From the NCBI GenBank assembly GCA_029863605.1, contig JAOTVB010000001.1, positions 596,187 to 660,186 on the forward strand: a stretch of DNA of 64,000 nt, read 5' to 3'. Source of the DNA: Myxococcales bacterium. GTDB lineage: Bacteria > Myxococcota_A > Polyangia > Polyangiales > Houyiibacteriaceae. The position numbers and the translations under genes were made by a program. The notes beneath the pieces were generated by a model. That model worked only from the letters and a program-made list of their open reading frames with translations, did not search any database and had not been told where the DNA came from. Positions 4,498-15,903 of the stretch are shown here, piece by piece; positions within the stretch are counted from its first letter, which is position 1; each line of letters opens with the position of its first letter.

Positions 4498-5688
4498 ATG
4501 CAAACCCCTGAACCAGCTCCCGGGCGTTACGGGCCGTATGGCGGGCGGTATGTGGCGGAGACCCTCATGCCGGCGCTCGATGAGCTCACGCGCGCCTACG
4601 AAGAGTCGCAGCGCGATCCGGCGTTTCAAGCAGAGCTCGACTCATTGCTTCACCACTACGCGGGACGGCCGACTCCGACGTATTTTGCGTCGCGGCTCAC
4701 CGAGGAGGTGGGGCCGCGCATCTGGTTGAAGCGCGAGGACCTGTGCCACACGGGGGCGCACAAGGTAAACAACACCATCGGCCAGATCTTGCTTGCCAAG
4801 CGCATGGGCAAGACCCGCATCATCGCGGAGACAGGCGCCGGCCAGCACGGTGTCGCGACCGCCACGTCATGCGCTCTGATGGGGCTTCCCTGCGAAGTGT
4901 ACATGGGGGCCGAGGACGTTCGACGGCAGGCTCCCAACGTCCGGCGAATGGAGCTCCTCGGCGCTGAAGTGCACTCGGTGAAGTCCGGGTCGGCGACGCT
5001 CAAGGACGCGATGAACGAGGCGTTACGAGACTGGGTCACCAACGTTCGGACGACCCACTATTGCGTGGGGTCCGTCGCCGGTCCACACCCGTATCCTCTA
5101 ATCGTCCGTGACTTTCAGGCGGTTATCGGAAAAGAGGCGCGCGCGCAGATGATCGAGCAGGCCGGCAAGCTCCCCGATGCGGTGGTCGCTTGCGTGGGCG
5201 GGGGCTCGAATGCGATGGGGATCTTTGCGGGTTTCATCGACGACGAGTCGGTGAGGCTCATCGGTGTGGAAGCTGCCGGGGACGGAATCGCTACGGGCCG
5301 CCACGCAGCGCCGCTTTGTGCCGGGGGTGTCGGAGTTCTTCATGGCGCGAAGAGCTATGTGCTCCAAACGGCGGACGGACAGATCGTCGAGGCGCACTCG
5401 ATCAGCGCGGGCCTCGACTACCCCGGCGTCGGCCCCGAGCACGCATGGCTCAAAGACATCGGGCGCGCCACCTACGGTGCGGTCACCGATGCACAGGCGC
5501 TCGACGCGTTCCAGCAACTCTGCCGCACCGAGGGCATCATCCCTGCCCTCGAGACCAGTCATGCGTTTGCGTATCTCCCGACCGTGGCCAAAGAGGTGGG
5601 GGACGATGCGGACATTCTAGTTTGTCTCTCCGGGCGGGGCGACAAGGACCTCGACACCGTGTTGGCACAGTTGAAGAGCAGGAGCTGA
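4498..5688 (+). CDS. trpB: Tryptophan synthase beta chain
   Basis: A 396-residue TrpB that condenses indole and serine to tryptophan with PLP. The opening [19 protein letters not shown], the PLP-lysine motif HKVNN (Lys89), the glycine-rich phosphate loop [10 protein letters not shown], and the C-terminal CLSGRGDKD are all present, so the enzyme looks fully active. Length is standard. No clear Shine-Dalgarno precedes the ATG, but the homology begins right after it. trpA follows 5 nt downstream, as expected for the alpha2-beta2 complex; trpC, trpF, trpD and trpE are not next to it. Confidence 0.97.
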
Positions 5689-7417: not shown

Positions 7418-8579
7418 AGCAGGCCTTGTAGAGCGCGAGCAGGTCGTCCTGTGAACAACTCCGAGGGTTTAGATTGTGACACGGGTCTGCGAAAGCCAAT
7501 GCGGCGAGCCGCGGCAGGTCGCTCTCGGCGATGCCCTGGGAACGCAAATCCGAGGGAAGCCCGATGACGCGCCGCAACGCCCGGACCGCGCCGGCGCACT
7601 CGAAGGACAACGTGTTGGCCTCGTCGCTTCGCACGCCGAGATGTCTCGCGATCTCGGCGATGCGGTCCGGAATGACGCTTCGGTTGAAGTCCAGCACGGC
7701 GGGCAGACAAATCGCGTTGGCCAGGCCGTGATGCATCCCGAGCTCGGCGGAGAGTGGATGCGCTAGCGAGTGGCATGCGCCAAGGCCCTTTTGGAAGGCG
7801 ACGGCGCCCATCATGGCGGCTTTCAGCATGTCGCCGCGTGCGCCTAGGTCCGCGCCATCCTCGACGGCGGCGCGGAGCGAGCGATGGCACAGCTGTATCC
7901 CTCCGAGCGCAATCGCATCTGCCATCGGGTGATCACCCGACGAACAATAGGCTTCCACGCAATGCGTAAGAGCGTCCATTCCCGTCGCTGCCGACATCGA
8001 GGGCGGCATCGTTTGGGTCATCCCAGGGTCTAGAATCGCCACGTCAGGAATCAGCAACGGCGAGAAAATGACCGTCTTGCGGTTGGTCGCTTGGATCGTG
8101 ACGACCCCGCTTCGGCCGACTTCGCTCCCAGTGCCCGCGGTCGTCGGGATCGCGATCATCGGTGGCAACGTGCCAACGATTTTTTCGCCTCCACCGATGG
8201 CGTCGTCATATCGAGCCAATGGCGCGGGGTGAGTCACCGCGAGCCGGACGAGCTTGGCAACGTCGAGGACGCTTCCGCCACCAACGCCGATGACGATGTC
8301 TGCTTTGAAGGTGTCGTACACACGTGCTGCGCCAAGCACTTCAGATTCGAGCGGGTTCGACGAAATGTCGAGGACTGACTCGTGAGCGATTCCGGCCGCA
8401 TCGAGAGCGCTGCGAATCGGGTGGAGCAATCCTGCAGCTTCGATGCCCTTGTCGGCGACCAAGAGCGCCCGGTGACCTGCAAGCCGGACGGCCTCCACGC
8501 CGCACTGCCTCGCTGCGCCTCCGCCGAAGACGACCCGGGTCGGAAAGCTCCACAAAACCAGGTTCTCGGTATCCGTCAT
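7404..8579 (-). CDS. Iron-containing (type III) alcohol dehydrogenase
   Basis: A 391-residue Fe-ADH. It has the NAD(P) motif GGGSVLD (about residues 99-105), the TTAGTGSE loop and all four metal ligands: Asp and His in GMDALTHCVE, His in SLAHPL and His in GMHHG. It should interconvert an alcohol and aldehyde using a divalent metal. The 4-nt overlap with the GpsA-like gene upstream and the overlap with dciA downstream place it in the same transcript as a PlsB-like acyltransferase, so a glycerol- or lipid-derived alcohol is a plausible but unproven substrate. Confidence 0.93.
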   Translation of the reverse strand: MTDTENLVLWSFPTRVVFGGGAARQCGVEAVRLAGHRALLVADKGIEAAGLLHPIRSALDAAGIAHESVLDISSNPLESEVLGAARVYDTFKADIVIGVGGGSVLDVAKLVRLAVTHPAPLARYDDAIGGGEKIVGTLPPMIAIPTTAGTGSEVGRSGVVTIQATNRKTVIFSPLLIPDVAILDPGMTQTMPPSMSAATGMDALTHCVEAYCSSGDHPMADAIALGGIQLCHRSLRAAVEDGADLGARGDMLKAAMMGAVAFQKGLGACHSLAHPLSAELGMHHGLANAICLPAVLDFNRSVIPDRIAEIARHLGVRSDEANTLSFECAGAVRALRRVIGLPSDLRSQGIAESDLPRLAALAFADPCHNLNPRSCSQDDLLALYKACFDDA

Positions 8580-9511
8580 TCTGGGCCTACACGCCTCTCC
8601 ATCAGAGCGTGCATTGCGTCTTCGGGGGTCATGCGCCGGCTGGAAATTTCGACGAAGACCGAGGAGATCGGAGTCTCCAAGCCGAGCCTGTGCGCCTGCT
8701 CGATCATGTTCTGGGCGACTTCGATGCCCTCGACGTACGCACCCGCTTCGGCGACCGCGCTCGCGAGCTCTGCACCGCGTGCCAGCGCACGACCGACGAG
8801 GGATTCGGCTCGCTCGTCGCCGGCCACCGCCGCGATCAAGTCACCGAGGCCGGCAAGCCCCATGAAGGTTTCCTCGGATGCACCAAGTGCCTGACCGATG
8901 CGTGAGATTTCGACCATCCCGCGGGTCGCCAAGACGGCCAGGGTGCTTGGCTCGACGCCGGTCTCTTGCGCGTAAGCGAGCACCACCGTCAGAAAGCCGA
9001 CCGTGGCGCTAGCCAGTTGTACGCCCAATACGTCCGTGGTGTCGTAGATTCGGAGATCGGAGCCGCCGATCGCCTCTCGGACCATCTCGGTCACTTCCGG
9101 GAACCTGGTTCCGAGGATGGCGCCGCTCGGTCGTCCCTCCGCAAGCGCGTTGGGTACTAGCGGGCCGGCGAGGGCGCCAAGGCGACGCGCTGCGGTGTGC
9201 TCGCGAAGCACGGTGGTGATGGTTTTGAGCTCCGCACCGATGAGACCGCGACTCACGTGCACGATCAAGTGCCGACCGTCGACGACTTTGCCGAGCTGAT
9301 CGGCAAGACTCGTTGCGTGCCGTGCAGGCGCCGCGAGAAAGATCAGGTCGCGATCTTCCATGTTGTCGATCGCGGTCGACGGCCGGATCGAGTCTGGGAG
9401 CGATCGTTCTCGTCGGCTCCACAGCACGACGTCGTGCCGTTGGCGCACGGCCGCGCTGGCGATCGCCTGTCCAAACCCGCCCGCGCCGACCACGCCGACC
9501 CGTAAGCTCAT
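8576..9511 (-). CDS. GpsA-fold NAD-binding protein lacking the glycerol-3-phosphate dehydrogenase lysines
   Basis: A 311-residue homologue of NAD(P)-dependent glycerol-3-phosphate dehydrogenase. The N-terminal Rossmann motif GAGGFG (residues 9-14) and the family motifs VQLASA, LATRG, FMGLAGLGDL are easy to align. By my hand alignment to E. coli GpsA, the catalytic Lys of GPTFAKELA is Asn121 and the Lys of GGAVKN is Val171; the phosphate-binding SRNRR is DERAES. It therefore should still bind dinucleotide but probably cannot reduce dihydroxyacetone phosphate. It overlaps both neighbours (PlsB-like and alcohol dehydrogenase genes) by 4 nt. Confidence 0.85.
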   Translation of the reverse strand: MSLRVGVVGAGGFGQAIASAAVRQRHDVVLWSRRERSLPDSIRPSTAIDNMEDRDLIFLAAPARHATSLADQLGKVVDGRHLIVHVSRGLIGAELKTITTVLREHTAARRLGALAGPLVPNALAEGRPSGAILGTRFPEVTEMVREAIGGSDLRIYDTTDVLGVQLASATVGFLTVVLAYAQETGVEPSTLAVLATRGMVEISRIGQALGASEETFMGLAGLGDLIAAVAGDERAESLVGRALARGAELASAVAEAGAYVEGIEVAQNMIEQAHRLGLETPISSVFVEISSRRMTPEDAMHALMERRVGPE

Positions 9512-11214
9512 CGGTGAACCCCCAGCGCTTCGATCTCGCAGGCGGCTTCCATCTGATCGGTGTCAGCGATGCGGTCGGCGAAGGACACCATTCTGTTCTG
9601 ATAGTAGAGGAGCAGCGACGGGTCGCAGAGCAGAACGCGATCGCCATCCAAGCTGGCTGCGGTGGAGGTGTGGTAACCGTTCCAGAATTGAAGGGCGGCT
9701 TCGAGCAGCTCGTTTGGCGAATCCTCGCGGACGACGTCGCTGACCCGAACTTCGCCCTTCGCTTCCAGCGCAAGCAGCCTCTCCCGAGCATCACCGAGGT
9801 CCTTGTGAACGACCTCTCGATCGATGCTGACCTCGCTCCGGAGCCGCATGCGACCGAAAAGGTCCATCCCGGGCGTTGCCTGTACGAGATGACGATACAA
9901 AACGTGCGCGACCACCTGCGTGCTCATCAAGACGGTGTCCCGCTCATACCGCTCGGCGAGCACGGTTCCGAGCTCTCGCGTGTAGGCGGCGTCCCGAGTT
10001 GCATCGACGACAGGCGTGCCTCGTCTTTCCACGTACCCGCCTGGATCGATGTTGCGACCTGCTGGGCTGAGCGATGCCCCCTTCTCGTCGATCGCGTTTC
10101 CGAACGGGTCGATCGGTTCACCAAAGCGAATGATGCATGCGCCCCGCATCCCCACCACCTTGCGGAAGAACGCAACCCAACGATCGATCTGGGAGAACTC
10201 ATCGTCTTCGATGATGTAGCGAGTTTGGCCCTCCTCGGTGAGCCAGTCTCGAATGAGCGTCTCCGCTTCGAGCACTAGGGCGTAGTTGATCGTCGTGGGG
10301 ACGAACCATACCGGTCGTTGGACGCGCCGCACGCGATTGGTCGTGAAGGCCTCCACAGCGGAACCGAGTAAGCCGAGCTTCAGATGCCGCTCGATCATTC
10401 CGGAGCGGCTTCGCGTGCCTCCGGGGAAGAAAAGTGAGTGATAGCCTCGCTCGATCATCACCTGGGAGTAGAGAGTCAGCACCTCTTTGTAGAGCCGCAC
10501 ACGGATGCGCCGGTCGACTCGATACGCGCCGAGATTATGCATGAAGAAGCTGATGATCGGATTAGTGAAGAGGTTCTTGCCGGCTCCGTATACGACAGGT
10601 GGCAACCCGGATACCTCGAGCGCTTGGGCCAGCACGATCGAGTCGAGATTCGACGAGTGGGTGGGAACGAAAACGAGGCTCCCTTCGGACTGAAGATATT
10701 GGAGGTGGTCGATGTCTCCCTGGACGCGCAACACTCGGCTGAGCACCTCGGACTGAGGTGCAGTGAAACTGCTGGCGAACCGCCTCGGCTCCATGACCCC
10801 CGCGACCAGTCGTGGTATCGCTTGGCGCGCGAAGCGGTAGACGCGAGGATCGAAGTTGCCTGCCACGTCGTGTGCCATGTTGGACACGATTGTGTGGAGC
10901 GCCTGCCGCTGCTCAGCATCGTCCATCTTGCCTATGCGCCGGATCATCGAACGCCAATACCCGAGCCGGTCTCGCGCTTCTTCGTCGCGTTGGTGCTCGA
11001 GGCGTCGAATCTCGTGAAACGCCGCATCGTTGAGGGCTATCTCGAGCCGTGATCGATCGGTCTCATGCGCACCGCAGATTCGATTGACCACGTCCGAGAC
11101 GATGTCGCCGCGCTCGCTGTTGAACCAGAAGATCGAGGGATCGCTTGGACGCGGAACGTACGGCTTGATGTGAGGCAACCGAAGAGGGCGTTCCGAAAAA
11201 AGGCGTTTCAACAT
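9508..11214 (-). CDS. PlsB-like glycerol-3-phosphate / lysophospholipid acyltransferase
   Basis: A 568-residue acyltransferase from the ATG at 11214, which has a GAGGGA Shine-Dalgarno; a longer open frame reaches 11259 but would run into the preceding gene. The PlsC/PlsB-type blocks are present: block I HSSNLD (HX4D), block II around GAGKNLF and GAYRVDRR, block III FFPGGTRSRSG, and block IV near RPVWFVPTTINYAL. The C-terminal third (VLMSTQVVAHVLY onward) matches the extended PlsB-type proteins. It should transfer an acyl chain to a glycerol phosphate-like acceptor at the inner membrane. The gene lies directly upstream of the GpsA-like gene. Confidence 0.85.
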   Translation of the reverse strand: MLKRLFSERPLRLPHIKPYVPRPSDPSIFWFNSERGDIVSDVVNRICGAHETDRSRLEIALNDAAFHEIRRLEHQRDEEARDRLGYWRSMIRRIGKMDDAEQRQALHTIVSNMAHDVAGNFDPRVYRFARQAIPRLVAGVMEPRRFASSFTAPQSEVLSRVLRVQGDIDHLQYLQSEGSLVFVPTHSSNLDSIVLAQALEVSGLPPVVYGAGKNLFTNPIISFFMHNLGAYRVDRRIRVRLYKEVLTLYSQVMIERGYHSLFFPGGTRSRSGMIERHLKLGLLGSAVEAFTTNRVRRVQRPVWFVPTTINYALVLEAETLIRDWLTEEGQTRYIIEDDEFSQIDRWVAFFRKVVGMRGACIIRFGEPIDPFGNAIDEKGASLSPAGRNIDPGGYVERRGTPVVDATRDAAYTRELGTVLAERYERDTVLMSTQVVAHVLYRHLVQATPGMDLFGRMRLRSEVSIDREVVHKDLGDARERLLALEAKGEVRVSDVVREDSPNELLEAALQFWNGYHTSTAASLDGDRVLLCDPSLLLYYQNRMVSFADRIADTDQMEAACEIEALGVHR

Positions 11215-11225
11215 CGTCTGTCCCT

Positions 11226-12581
11226 CTATGCGGACTCGAAGTACCGGTGGAGCTCCCATTCACTCACGGACTTGCGATACTCGCGGCACTCCCAGTCTCT
11301 GGTGCGGATATAGTGGTCGATGAAATGTTCGCCAAGGACATCGTGGACCGACTGACTCTCGCGGAGCAGGCCGACTGCGGCTTCTAGTGTCGGCGGCAGG
11401 GCGAGTGATGGATCCACCTCTTGGGTTGCGTCGCCCGAGGTCATGCGTGGTGGGGCGATCCCTTGCGCGATGCCGTAGAGCCCGGAGCCGAGACACGTCG
11501 CCATGGCGATGTACGGGTTGATGTCCGCCGCGGTCTGCCGGAACTCGATGCGAGCGGCGTGGTCGCTTGGCCCGAGGATCACCCTTGCCCCGCAAGTGCG
11601 ATTTTCGATTCCCCAAGACGCCGTGAGGGGAGCCCAGACCCCGGGCACGTACCGCTTGTAACTGTTGACGAATGGCGAGTAGAGCGCGGTGAGCTCCGGC
11701 GCCAACGTGACCAGCCCGCCGAGGTAGTGAAGGCCGGTTGCACTCAGCGTGTCACTCCCGGCCGCAGCAAAGAGGTTGATCTGACCGCCCGCGTCCCAGA
11801 GGCTTTGGTGGATGTGCCCGCTCGATCCCGGCAGGTCCGGATTCCATTTCGCCATGAATGTCACGGAGTAACCATGTCGATCGCAGATTTGTTTTAGCGT
11901 GGTCTTGAAGAGCGCTGCTTTGTCTGCGGCGGACACGATGTCGTCGTAGCGTAGAGCGGCTTCCCACACGCCCGGACCCGTCTCAGGGTGGAGACTCTCG
12001 ATGTCGATGTCGTACGTCGCGCATGTGTCCAAGATGTCGTCGACTAGGAGTTGGTTTTGTCCCTGACGCAACCACGAGTAGCCAAACATCCCTGGGCTCA
12101 GGGGCTGCAGGTCGCGAAACCCCTTCTCGTGCAGCGTTTCCGGAGTCTCTTGGAACACCCAAAACTCGAACTCGGCCGAGAACTTGCTGCGAAAGCCGGC
12201 GTCGAGGGCTCTTTGGTTGATCGATTTGAGCAAACCTCGAGGGCAGGCTGGATGGGGTTGGCCTTCCTGTGTGTAGAAGTCGATCAAGAAATCGGCAGTG
12301 TCTGGGGCGTAGGGCAAGACGCGCATCGTGGATGTATCGATGCGGGCAAGCGCGTCCGGGTAGCCCGTGTCCCAGCCAGTGACCTTGGCATTGTCGTACA
12401 GCTGGTCGTTGATGTCCCAGCCGAAGATCACGTCGCAGAACCCGAAGCCCTTCTCTAGGGCCGACCAGAACTTGTCCAAGCTGATGTACTTACCGCGCAG
12501 GACGCCATCGATGTCGAAGCCGCCAACCCTGACCTTCCGGATGCCTTTGTCGTTGAAGTCGCGCCGCAGCTGTTCGCTCAC
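11226..12581 (-). CDS. Glutamine synthetase-family ligase (gamma-glutamyl-amine type)
   Basis: A 451-residue member of the glutamine synthetase superfamily. Metal and substrate motifs are intact: SAEFEFWVF, SLHPETGPGVWE, GSSGHIHQSLWD, FVNSYKRYVPG and the ATP/glutamate motif around ARIEFRQTAADINPY. The GVLRGKY near the N-terminus and overall length fit the group that joins glutamate to an amine (gamma-glutamylpolyamine or related synthetases) better than housekeeping GlnA. It heads the minus-strand operon, 11 nt before the PlsB-like gene. The actual amine is unknown. Confidence 0.88.
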   Translation of the reverse strand: MSEQLRRDFNDKGIRKVRVGGFDIDGVLRGKYISLDKFWSALEKGFGFCDVIFGWDINDQLYDNAKVTGWDTGYPDALARIDTSTMRVLPYAPDTADFLIDFYTQEGQPHPACPRGLLKSINQRALDAGFRSKFSAEFEFWVFQETPETLHEKGFRDLQPLSPGMFGYSWLRQGQNQLLVDDILDTCATYDIDIESLHPETGPGVWEAALRYDDIVSAADKAALFKTTLKQICDRHGYSVTFMAKWNPDLPGSSGHIHQSLWDAGGQINLFAAAGSDTLSATGLHYLGGLVTLAPELTALYSPFVNSYKRYVPGVWAPLTASWGIENRTCGARVILGPSDHAARIEFRQTAADINPYIAMATCLGSGLYGIAQGIAPPRMTSGDATQEVDPSLALPPTLEAAVGLLRESQSVHDVLGEHFIDHYIRTRDWECREYRKSVSEWELHRYFESA

Positions 12582-12647: not shown

Positions 12648-12667
12648 TTCCGTCTATTTAGACGGAA
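12648..12667 (-). terminator. Hairpin overlapping the stop codon of the sigma-factor operon
   Basis: TTCCGTCTA and its exact complement are separated by two bases (12648-12667). Read on the minus strand the stem contains the last codons and the TAG of the membrane-protein gene and is followed by ATTGATT, a weak U-rich tail. It is well placed to end transcription of the pseudokinase-sigma-membrane protein operon before the glutamine-synthetase-like gene. Confidence 0.5.
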
Positions 12668-13382
12668 TCCAGTAGTGAACCAAGCCCAAACCGACGACGA
12701 ACAAAACGGCGACCGAGGCATGCCCGAGAAGCACGTGTCCGGTGGTGTCGATCGCGCAGTGAGCCTTCAGCACGAAGTTCCCCGCGAGGCCTGCAGCCGA
12801 CGCCGCGATCAAGCTACCAAAAGCGTTTCCTCGATCGACCAACCGGAGCAATGCATAGACGGGAACGCCAAGCAGGAGCCCAAAACCCATGCATGCACCC
12901 GCCACCATTCGGCTCGTGTGTTCGTGCGTGATCGCCTGCGCGCCTGCAGCCGGCCAAAAGGCGGCAAGCACAGTGGCCCCAACCGCGACGCAGACGAGGC
13001 ATACGACTTGCCAACGCGGAAGCTCTGGCTGATGTACCGGGCGTGTCACCATGATCATGGCGACGACGAGAAGAATGCAAAAGACCGCGAGCGTTGCGGC
13101 CCAGGGGCCCGTGCGCACGGACTCGTTGACGAGGGGGAAGTTGTACCAGCCGATAACGGCCAAAACCGCAAACACGGCCAAGACGATGAGTCGCCGCACG
13201 TTCGTCGACCGGCTTCGAAAAAACCCCGCGATGGTCTTGTCGCTGTGGCTGCACTGACCCTTCACGTTTTGGAACATCCGATCGATGAGCTCGCGATCGT
13301 TTGCTTCGCTCGCCGAGTCGAGCTCGCGCAGCCGTTCGCCCAGACCGTCGTCCGAACCTGCTCTGTCGCTGCCTTTAGTCAT
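12654..13382 (-). CDS. DUF1109/NrsF-like membrane protein, probable anti-sigma factor
   Basis: A 242-residue protein with an N-terminal cytoplasmic part of about 60 residues and about six membrane segments (from IVLAVFAVLAVIGW to VAVLFVVGLGLVHYW). The end of the protein has HCAIDTTGHVLLGHASV, which resembles the conserved HCP..HLLLGH signature of DUF1109 (NrsF) anti-sigma factors. Its start overlaps the stop of the ECF sigma factor gene by 4 nt, the usual arrangement for a cognate pair. It would hold the sigma factor at the membrane until a signal arrives. The anti-sigma role is inferred from family resemblance and position. Confidence 0.72.
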   Translation of the reverse strand: MTKGSDRAGSDDGLGERLRELDSASEANDRELIDRMFQNVKGQCSHSDKTIAGFFRSRSTNVRRLIVLAVFAVLAVIGWYNFPLVNESVRTGPWAATLAVFCILLVVAMIMVTRPVHQPELPRWQVVCLVCVAVGATVLAAFWPAAGAQAITHEHTSRMVAGACMGFGLLLGVPVYALLRLVDRGNAFGSLIAASAAGLAGNFVLKAHCAIDTTGHVLLGHASVAVLFVVGLGLVHYWIPSK

Positions 13383-13948
13383 TCATCACCACGTATTTCC
13401 GAAACTAGTAATTGTTTCAAAGTTGCGTACGCACGATGTGCGCGGACGCGCACAGCGCCCTCTGAAGTGCCCACGATCGTTGCAACCTCGGCGTAGGGGC
13501 GCTCCTGGAACCAATGGAGCTCGACCACCTCCCGCTGGCTCGTTGGGAGCTTTTCGAGGGCTGCATGCAGGAGCTGCGAGCGCTGCCGAATCTCGAGGGG
13601 CATGAGCTCGGCTTCTGGTGCGGCCTGGGTTTCGACCTCCAGCGAGGTCATTTTGCGACGCTTCTTTCGCCGCCAGTGCTCTCGCACCAGATTCATCGCG
13701 ATGGTCATCACCCAAGGCCTGAGCTTCGAGCCTCGACGAAAGTCGTTGCGGGCTCCGTGGAGTCGAAAAAACGTCTGTTGCACGATCTCCTCGGCGAGCT
13801 CGTCGGACCGGAGATGCCGGCGAGTCAACCGGAGCAGGATCGGCGCGTAACGCTCGAATAAGAGTCGGAACGCCTGATCGTTGCCATCGATGTAGGCATC
13901 CATCAGCTGTTCGTCGGTGGATTGTGGGTCTGGTGGCCTACTCGACAT
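13379..13948 (-). CDS. ECF-type RNA polymerase sigma factor
   Basis: A 189-residue sigma-70 family ECF factor with region 2 at about residues 23-90 (LFERYAPILLRLTRRHLRS, EIVQQTFFRLH, LRPWVMTIAMNLVREHWRR) and region 4 at about 125-180 (LPTSQREVVELHWFQERPY, EVATIVGTSEGAVRVRAHRA). A basic linker (RRKKRRK) joins them. Its start lies 11 nt inside the pseudokinase gene and its end overlaps the membrane-protein gene, so the three are co-expressed. It is expected to direct polymerase to a small regulon controlled by the membrane partner. Confidence 0.93.
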   Translation of the reverse strand: MSSRPPDPQSTDEQLMDAYIDGNDQAFRLLFERYAPILLRLTRRHLRSDELAEEIVQQTFFRLHGARNDFRRGSKLRPWVMTIAMNLVREHWRRKKRRKMTSLEVETQAAPEAELMPLEIRQRSQLLHAALEKLPTSQREVVELHWFQERPYAEVATIVGTSEGAVRVRAHRAYATLKQLLVSEIRGDE

Positions 13949-15098
13949 GTTCCGCCGGGACGAGCTCGGGAGTCAGAGCTTCTTGGTTAGCGCTCCTTTC
14001 CCCATTCCACCAGTAGCCCGAGAACACCAGAGTGCCCAACAGCAAGAGCAGGAGTACGATTCGTACCCAGTGACGGGTGTTCTCCGAGGTCTCGTCCTGC
14101 ACGACGATCGGCGCATTCGGCCTCAGCCGTGGCCCCGAGACACTGAGCACGGTTCCAGCCGGGTGGTTGCTGCTCACGTGTGCGGGGGGCAACGAGGAGG
14201 CCAGGGTCGGAACCGGGATCGACCCGATTCGCGACGACTCCATCCACGGGGCGATGTCCTGGGTCTGTGGGTTTAGTTTGGCGGACTCGACCTCGAGCCA
14301 CCCGAGCGCTGCCAACATGGACGTCGCATCGGGATAGCGGCCCTCGGGGCGTTTGGCCATGGCGCGACGAATCACGTCCGGGAGCCCCGGGATGTCTTCG
14401 AAACCTTCGTCGGTCTCCCAACCGACTGGCGGGGAGCCGAGCACCATGTGGTGTAACAGAGCGCCTACCGAGTAGAGGTCTGCGGAAGGCGGGAAAGCCC
14501 CGGTGCCGATGAGCTCCGGCGCCATGTATGCCACGGCGTGTTTTCCGGAGCCGGTATGCGCGGCATGCGCGCTCGCTTCAGGGCATGCACGGAGCAGGGG
14601 AACGACACCCGTCCCGATCACGCGGGCCCCTAGCGCGCCGTCGCGTTCGCGTGTGATGACGATATTGTCTGGCGTCAGGTCGCCGTGTACGAGGCCCTGG
14701 GCGTGCGTGGCTTCCAGCGCCTCCAGCACGGCGGTCGCGATCCGAAGGACGCCTGCCGAAGGCAACTTGCGGTCGCGCAGTACCTCCGATAGAGGGGTCC
14801 CTCGCGTGTCTTGAAACGCTACGTACGGAACGCCGTCGATGATGCCCGCGTCGAGCACGCGTGGGACCGAGCGGCACCGAGTCCGGCCGAGGCTCTGCGT
14901 GAGCTGCGAGAAAGCGGCCTCTGCGACGCGCGAGCGACTGACATCCATCGGAAAGATGCAGATGATCAGCGGCGTTCCCTCCGCCGATCCGCGGTAATAC
15001 GAGACGAGGCCACCCCACGGCAACTGGCCGTCGACCGCGTAGCGCCCGGCGAAGAGTTCGTCCGGCGGAGGATGAGCGCCACCAGGCGATGGAAACAT
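13938..15098 (-). CDS. Membrane-anchored serine/threonine pseudokinase
   Basis: A 386-residue protein with a protein-kinase fold (about residues 18-260) and one C-terminal membrane segment (about 346-364) close to the end. Fold landmarks include HGDLTPDN (138-145, aligned to HRDLKPEN), MAPELI (192-197) and DLYSVGALLH (207-216, the DxWSxG helix). Catalytic features are missing: the beta-3 lysine position is Cys47 (LIICIF), the glycine loop is degenerate (GQLPWGG) and the DFG triplet is GTG (162-164). It therefore probably senses or scaffolds rather than phosphorylates. It is first in the operon with the sigma factor and its membrane partner. Confidence 0.82.
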   Translation of the reverse strand: MFPSPGGAHPPPDELFAGRYAVDGQLPWGGLVSYYRGSAEGTPLIICIFPMDVSRSRVAEAAFSQLTQSLGRTRCRSVPRVLDAGIIDGVPYVAFQDTRGTPLSEVLRDRKLPSAGVLRIATAVLEALEATHAQGLVHGDLTPDNIVITRERDGALGARVIGTGVVPLLRACPEASAHAAHTGSGKHAVAYMAPELIGTGAFPPSADLYSVGALLHHMVLGSPPVGWETDEGFEDIPGLPDVIRRAMAKRPEGRYPDATSMLAALGWLEVESAKLNPQTQDIAPWMESSRIGSIPVPTLASSLPPAHVSSNHPAGTVLSVSGPRLRPNAPIVVQDETSENTRHWVRIVLLLLLLGTLVFSGYWWNGERSANQEALTPELVPAEHVE

Positions 15099-15138
15099 CG
15101 GAGGTAGGATAGTCGCAATTGGCCGTCGTGACGAGGAT

Positions 15139-15903
15139 CTAGATCAACGCTTGCGACGCGGGACCTTTGCGAATTTGACCTCGGGAATGGACTTGGCCGG
15201 TCTCGGGCTCCGTGAGCTCGAAGGCCCGGGTTTCATCGCCGGTCACCCAAGTTTGCATTCGTACCAGTTGGCCAGCATGCGTCTCGCGGAGGTACTCGAC
15301 CGAAAGCGACTCGAGAGGCCCTTCGATCCCAGCCGCCTCTCCTGCCATCGAGGCGAGCTGTCGCGTGTCGTCGATGTAGTCGACGTAGCGAGCCTGGTTC
15401 ACGTGGCGAAAGCTATCCTGATCGCTCGGTCGAACGATCCACTGTCGGGTCCACGAGGATCGACGCTCGCTTTCCTGCCAGAGGACAGCTGGGGGTACCG
15501 GTTCGTCGAGAACCGTGGACGCCAGGTCTGCGCCGACTGGTGCTGGGCCATCCGGTCCGATGTGCACGACGGTGACCCTCGCTCTGACCGCCACCGCTTG
15601 ATCGCTCAGCCGGCTGATCGCGTGACCGAAGTCGTAACTCGTATTTCCGACCCGGGCGAGCCACGTGGCGATCTCGACTTCGTCGTCCGCCCTAAGGGGT
15701 TCGAGGTATTCGAAGGCGCTAGCCCGTGCGACGCCGCCCACGACCCGGTTGCGAAGGGCGAAAGTCTCGAGCCCGAAGACGGACCAGCGCACGCGTTCGA
15801 GCATTCGCGCGATCCAACCAGGCCCGACCGTCGAGGATGCATCGGTCTCGATGCCGCGGATGGTGTGGTCGATCTTGACGAGCTTCGCGACGGGGTCTGT
15901 CAT
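15139..15903 (-). CDS. Double-hotdog acyl thioesterase-like protein
   Basis: A 254-residue protein from the ATG at 15903; the frame stays open upstream but that part is Arg-rich and antisense to other sequence. Two hotdog halves are visible: residues 1-130 (SAFEYLEPLRADDEVEIATW) and 140-250 (RPSDQDSFRHVNQARYVDYI, containing the catalytic-type Asp and the HVN motif of 4HBT/acyl-ACP thioesterases). It likely hydrolyses an acyl-CoA or acyl-ACP. It is divergent from the enoyl-CoA hydratase gene, with 71 nt between the starts, so the two may share a control region and a lipid pathway. Confidence 0.78.
   Translation of the reverse strand: MTDPVAKLVKIDHTIRGIETDASSTVGPGWIARMLERVRWSVFGLETFALRNRVVGGVARASAFEYLEPLRADDEVEIATWLARVGNTSYDFGHAISRLSDQAVAVRARVTVVHIGPDGPAPVGADLASTVLDEPVPPAVLWQESERRSSWTRQWIVRPSDQDSFRHVNQARYVDYIDDTRQLASMAGEAAGIEGPLESLSVEYLRETHAGQLVRMQTWVTGDETRAFELTEPETGQVHSRGQIRKGPASQALI

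Follow-up and report, generated by a model that had tools for sequence, protein, structure and literature searches.

A myxobacterial operon links a pseudokinase, dead by motif, to an ECF sigma factor and an NrsF-family protein, with a probable scaffold or switch role for the pseudokinase in gene control

Two types of described ECF sigma factor systems are closest to the locus analyzed here. In Caulobacter SigF-NrsF and Bradyrhizobium EcfF-OsrA (ECF16), the ECF gene is followed by a gene encoding a protein of the DUF1109/NrsF family with six transmembrane (TM) helices. NrsF and OsrA contain two conserved Cys residues (C131/C181 and C129/C179, respectively) and are established anti-sigma factors in which these residues matter for holding and release of the sigma factor (PMC3511200, PMC3420878). 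In EcfP-PknT and EcfK-PknS (ECF43), a membrane protein with a kinase fold is encoded beside the ECF; both kinases, PknT and PknS, are active, and their substrates are ECFs without the acidic DAED motif (PMC8999054), in agreement with the original prediction that the known ECF-linked kinases are active enzymes (PMC8999054, PMC13147305). Bacterial pseudokinases with a Hanks-type fold that lost the ATP- and metal-binding motifs were described as ActPs1-3, GLW, CP1, DYD, and DLHK in a review, the text of which mentions neither Myxococcota nor sigma factors (PMC12599244). In those parts of the open literature that were accessible to the search, pseudokinases and ECF or anti-sigma factors were linked by co-mentions only.

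The locus resembling both types derives from a myxobacterial genome, the relatives of which are mostly metagenome-assembled genomes named 'Myxococcales bacterium' or 'Deltaproteobacteria bacterium'. It is located in a stretch of 64,000 nucleotides (the window). The original prediction of three overlapping minus-strand genes at 12654-15098 was correct in coordinates and gene content. Unlike in SigF-NrsF and EcfF-OsrA, a pseudokinase (PK) gene precedes the ECF gene, and the two overlap by 11 nt; the ECF and NrsF-like genes overlap by 4 nt (ATGA). The features of the operon are as follows.

13938..15098, minus strand: PK (386 amino acids), with a predicted kinase fold at about residues 14-268, a disordered linker, a TM helix at about 340-366 (about 336-371 in the AlphaFold model), and a tail of about 20 amino acids
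13379..13948, minus strand: ECF sigma factor (189 amino acids), with LAEE at the DAED position in region 2.2
12654..13382, minus strand: NrsF-family membrane protein (242 amino acids), with a predicted N-terminal helix and six TM helices; C164, C209, H216, and H221 conserved
14946..14975, minus strand: beta-3 strand TPLIICIFPM of PK (residues 42-51), with Cys47 at the ATP-binding Lys site, from sequence and alignments
14664..14687, minus strand: catalytic loop HGDLTPDN of PK (residues 138-145), with HxD and Asn kept
14607..14615, minus strand: GTG of PK (residues 162-164) at the DFG site; G-x-G invariant in ECF-linked homologues
14199..14291, minus strand: juxtamembrane linker VESAKLNPQTQDIAPWMESSRIGSIPVPTLA of PK (residues ~270-300), constrained; low pLDDT from residue 277
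15099..15139, minus strand: gap upstream of PK with a TATCCT −10-like box ~9-12 nt 5' of the PK ATG, a candidate promoter

PK matched the Pfam family Pkinase (2.6e-15). The Lys-to-Cys (Cys47) and DFG-to-GTG (G162-T-G164) exchanges named in the original prediction were both seen in the sequence and in the alignments. It had not listed that the alpha-C Glu is also gone, with Leu66 in its place, and that the Gly-loop (LPWGGLVSY) lost its first and third Gly. The N-lobe (residues 14-110) of the window protein contains no Lys; that of the homologues contains none or one, located just before the alpha-C region. Still present are H138-G-D140, N145, APE, and the alpha-F Asp. The AlphaFold model showed a kinase fold, with most of residues 11-276 at pLDDT 70-96, a low-confidence linker, and one TM helix. 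The best matches among solved structures were PknA (Z = 25.6) and PknS (9eed, Z = 25.4), the latter being the kinase of the ECF43-type system. The kinase domain is presumably cytoplasmic. Judged by these motifs, PK is dead in the window and in every intact homologue, which bears out its description as kinase-dead. PK had further been called a receptor and suggested to be the signal sensor or an anti-sigma release factor. With only about 20 residues beyond the single TM helix, an ectodomain receptor was rejected on predicted topology, and a better sensor candidate is the set of Cys and His residues conserved in the NrsF-like protein; PK may still be an anti-sigma release factor.

Thirteen further genomes of the genus encode PK homologues that are complete or almost so, and one homologue was identified in a genome of another genus (G026, 41% PK identity); in addition, contig-edge fragments were found in G009 and, as a second copy, in G005. 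The original prediction had asked whether close relatives keep the Lys and DFG, and whether the gene order holds. No intact homologue keeps these motifs: the beta-3 Lys and DFG Asp are gone and the HxD Asp is kept in 14 of 14 rows of the alignment and in one truncated copy (L032), with G-x-G at the DFG site in all homologues. The Lys position is occupied by Cys, Ser, or Ala, so that Cys47 was rejected as a conserved redox sensor. The PK-ECF-NrsF order is conserved wherever contigs reach, both in the genus and in G026. Two further genomes (G010, G018) contained the downstream part only, at a contig edge, and in two genus members (G012, 79% complete; G015, 66% complete) none of the three genes was found. 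Median dN/dS values, which are approximate because dS was near 1.2, were 0.125 for the kinase domain of PK, 0.088 for residues 269-305, and 0.29 for the rest of the linker, the TM helix, and the tail, compared with 0.083 for the ECF and 0.154 for the NrsF-like protein. Because the same losses and the same order are found in all intact homologues and the kinase domain is under such constraint (dN/dS 0.125), the arrangement is, at the sequence level, not due to chance.

In an unrooted tree with a small outgroup, built with the catalytic columns removed, the ECF-linked copies formed one clade (100/96) and nine sister pseudokinases from other genera formed another (97/88); together, they split from eight sampled VAIK/HRD/DFG kinases (100/99). 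The sister pseudokinases are the nearest homologues, and K-to-A/S and DFG-to-GxG exchanges are common to them; none was beside an ECF where an ECF of the same genome was located. The next matches examined in the same family have canonical motifs, except one with an unclear DFG by simple pattern reading. PK belongs to a well-supported pseudokinase clade, and no pseudokinase of its kind was found outside the order in a phylum-wide sample of 377 genomes. Recent decay of PK was rejected, given that the gene is under purifying selection and that the pseudokinase clade is older. Beyond the TM helix, unlinked sisters (L037 4867-6732, L039 7010-8734, L040 7804-9543) contain long acidic repeats of low complexity, which in some of them end in a helical, TPR-like tail. 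A kinase-like gene in G264 (L253 1-1159), without beta-3 Lys or HRD by simple pattern, is possibly an unrelated pseudokinase.

ECF-NrsF pairs without an adjacent kinase were found across the class. Because this pair is so widespread without a kinase, PK is best read as an added third component of ECF-NrsF, with loss in relatives as the alternative. The original prediction had also asked whether the pseudokinase is always next to this sigma type; the sister pseudokinases are located elsewhere, and most ECF-NrsF pairs of the class have no PK. In the family outside the genus, seven genomes contained both pseudokinase and ECF, one and one contained a single one of them, and five neither (Fisher 0.016, phylogeny ignored). 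A kinase-less ECF-NrsF pair (L056 247-6250) adjoins the same glnA-plsB-gpsA trio that is located 3' of the window operon (8576-12581). In G023 (L182 18-671), a contig breaks off within a kinase-like gene that lies ~131 bp upstream of an ECF gene; only its 3' part is present, which apparently encodes a TM helix and a PPC-like tail.

The juxtamembrane linker of PK (residues 270-300) is constrained about as much as the ECF although it is mostly predicted to be disordered. Its TQDI (TLDI in one row) and GSIPV (GSVPV in one row) segments were found in ECF-linked copies only and in none of the nine sister pseudokinases; a short PLW-like core is common to G026 and three of the sisters. The linker is inferred to dock on either the ECF or the cytoplasmic helix of the NrsF-like protein; the constraint could also reflect another binding partner.

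The ECF matched Sigma70_r2 (1e-15) and r4_2 (1.1e-14) in Pfam and thus contains regions 2 and 4 only. It has LAEE at the DAED position, and the Glu at the last position (E54) is invariant across the ECF-linked set. Whereas the phosphorylation-activated ECF43 factors have no acidic DAED motif (PMC8999054), with uncharged residues that can be phosphorylated in its place, and are encoded with active kinases, the ECF studied here keeps acidic residues and has a putative anti-sigma factor, and its linked kinase is dead by motif. Control of the ECF43 type was rejected on the grounds of these acidic residues and of the missing catalytic residues; LAEE would fit control without phosphorylation.

The NrsF-like protein of the window matched Pfam NrsF (PF06532) with E = 0.0049, under the family cut-off, and in this divergence it differs from NrsF and OsrA. 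In an alignment of the window protein with 19 class-wide homologues (A5), 10 of the 20 proteins matched PF06532 independently (best 8e-10), and for this reason the third protein is classified as a divergent member of the NrsF family. Its model showed six long membrane-type helices (pLDDT 72). Cys164 and Cys209, two conserved Cys residues as in NrsF and OsrA, were invariant in three alignments (A3, A5, A6), with one row gapped over Cys209 in another alignment, and are conserved in the homologues together with His216 and His221. In the model, the four residues are placed near one membrane face, which would be periplasmic if the N-terminus is inside. The NrsF-like protein is the likely sensor. 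The pattern C-x6-H-x4-H (C209, H216, H221) with C164 as second Cys was seen in class-wide NrsF-family proteins (window 12654-13382, A5, L182-L220) and is a possible periplasm-side metal or redox site.

In most relatives, and in G026 as well, the PK start is preceded by a TAT[CT]CT box at a distance of ~9-12 nt, and the TATCCT box of the window is a candidate promoter of a leaderless, or nearly leaderless, transcript. In most relatives, a separate TATGCT box was present 5' of the downstream glnA-like gene; the two boxes suggest that PK-ECF-NrsF is a transcription unit of its own. Unlike in SigF-NrsF and EcfF-OsrA, no GTAAC-type promoter was found upstream: the ECF16-type autoregulated motif GTAAC[GC]-N14-16-CG[TA]A was absent from both strands of the window. 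Thus, self-activation of the window ECF may have been lost or changed. In kinase-less relatives, GTAAC-N15/17-CGTA, which resembles SigF promoters, was located upstream of the ECF in 4 of 37 cases versus 0.003 expected from shuffles, an excess that is somewhat optimistic because the sequences used for counting were those in which the motif had first been noticed by eye. GTAAC[GC]-N15-CGTA was observed in L056 and L057 (~4850-5010) and upstream of the ECF in L185, L187, L188, and L219, and in none of the pseudokinase-linked operons examined. A regulon search in six genomes with GTAACG-N15/16-CGTA gave no excess over the reversed-pattern control.

Of the described pseudokinases, DLHK resembles PK in keeping the HxD Asp and the catalytic-loop Asn. 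PK was nevertheless rejected as a DLHK pseudokinase, since its sequence contains a long hydrophobic stretch rich in leucine and its model a TM helix at about 336-371; neither DLHK nor CP1 has a TM segment, and both frequently carry fused helicase or ATPase domains (PMC12599244). Unlike PK, GLW loses HRD, ActPs1 and ActPs2 are actinobacterial, and DYD has a beta-3 Arg (PMC12599244). EcpK-EpsV of Myxococcus xanthus is comparable in that EcpK is a dead myxobacterial kinase, for which a scaffold role on a membrane protein from its own pathway was proposed; unlike PK, EcpK is a Walker-type tyrosine pseudokinase with an unrelated fold that functions in polysaccharide synthesis (PMC12004946).

Because relatives keep the dead kinase together with the stress-type sigma factor and its putative membrane anti-sigma factor, PK probably takes part in gene control not as an enzyme but as a scaffold or switch. 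We consider it moderately probable that PK was added to an ECF and its NrsF-family anti-sigma factor and that it serves sigma release as a membrane scaffold or switch without catalysis, perhaps via linker 270-300. In resting cells, the NrsF-like protein would hold the ECF at the inner membrane, and an oxidant or metal acting on the putative periplasm-side residues Cys164/Cys209/His216/His221 would release it. PK would be made just before the ECF and the NrsF-like protein by overlapping translation and be anchored in the same membrane. Its binding partner would be the ECF, the N-terminal helix of the NrsF-like protein on the cytoplasmic side, or both, and neither would be phosphorylated by PK. 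Such binding, probably via linker 270-300 and the kinase fold, would set a threshold or a partner exchange. For the more specific proposal that PK directly regulates the ECF and the NrsF-type anti-sigma factor without phosphotransfer, e.g., by docking of the linker on sigma, and represents a pseudokinase family absent from PMC12599244, we regard the case as evenly balanced.

PK might instead have a membrane function of its own, as the unlinked sister pseudokinases must have, and merely be co-expressed with ECF-NrsF. The location of the sisters away from ECFs and the lack of a kinase in most ECF-NrsF pairs would fit; we consider it fairly unlikely in view of overlapping start/stop signals and a gene order common to the genus and to G026, where PK identity is 41%, of linker segments confined to ECF-linked copies, and of the finding that pseudokinase and ECF, where unlinked, co-occur in genomes of the family. 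Part of the role of PK may still be ECF-independent, given that no ECF adjoins its sisters in related genera. Eukaryotic pseudokinases often serve as allosteric partners or docking platforms for active kinases. PK could act likewise on an active Ser/Thr kinase encoded elsewhere that phosphorylates the NrsF-like protein or the ECF; there are about 30 kinase-like loci in the genome, and PknB-dependent phosphorylation of anti-sigma factors is known (PMC8999054). This appears quite unlikely, as neither an active kinase gene linked to the operon nor a phospho-acceptor signature was found, and the ECF keeps its acidic residues at the DAED position.

Residual nucleotide binding or some unusual chemistry might explain why HxD and Asn are invariant, and DLHK, a predicted ATP binder, keeps the same two residues (PMC12599244). 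Activity of PK by a WNK-like displaced Lys, metal-independent ATP use, or AMP transfer is, however, highly unlikely: the alpha-C Glu, the Gly-loop glycines, and the DFG Asp are all gone, and the WNK-like rescue was rejected for want of any N-lobe Lys in the window PK, with none consistently placed in the homologues. The beta-2 Arg36, although invariant, is not special, since a beta-2 Arg is also found in several of the active kinases compared.

Little is known of what bacterial pseudokinases do, and the control of ECFs by linked kinases has so far been described as phosphorylation. In the conserved operon, a dead kinase is tied to one specific pair of sigma and anti-sigma factor; its likely partners are thereby named, which makes a direct test possible. 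If the proposed role is true, a phosphorylation-free layer of control would be added to a widespread stress-signalling module.
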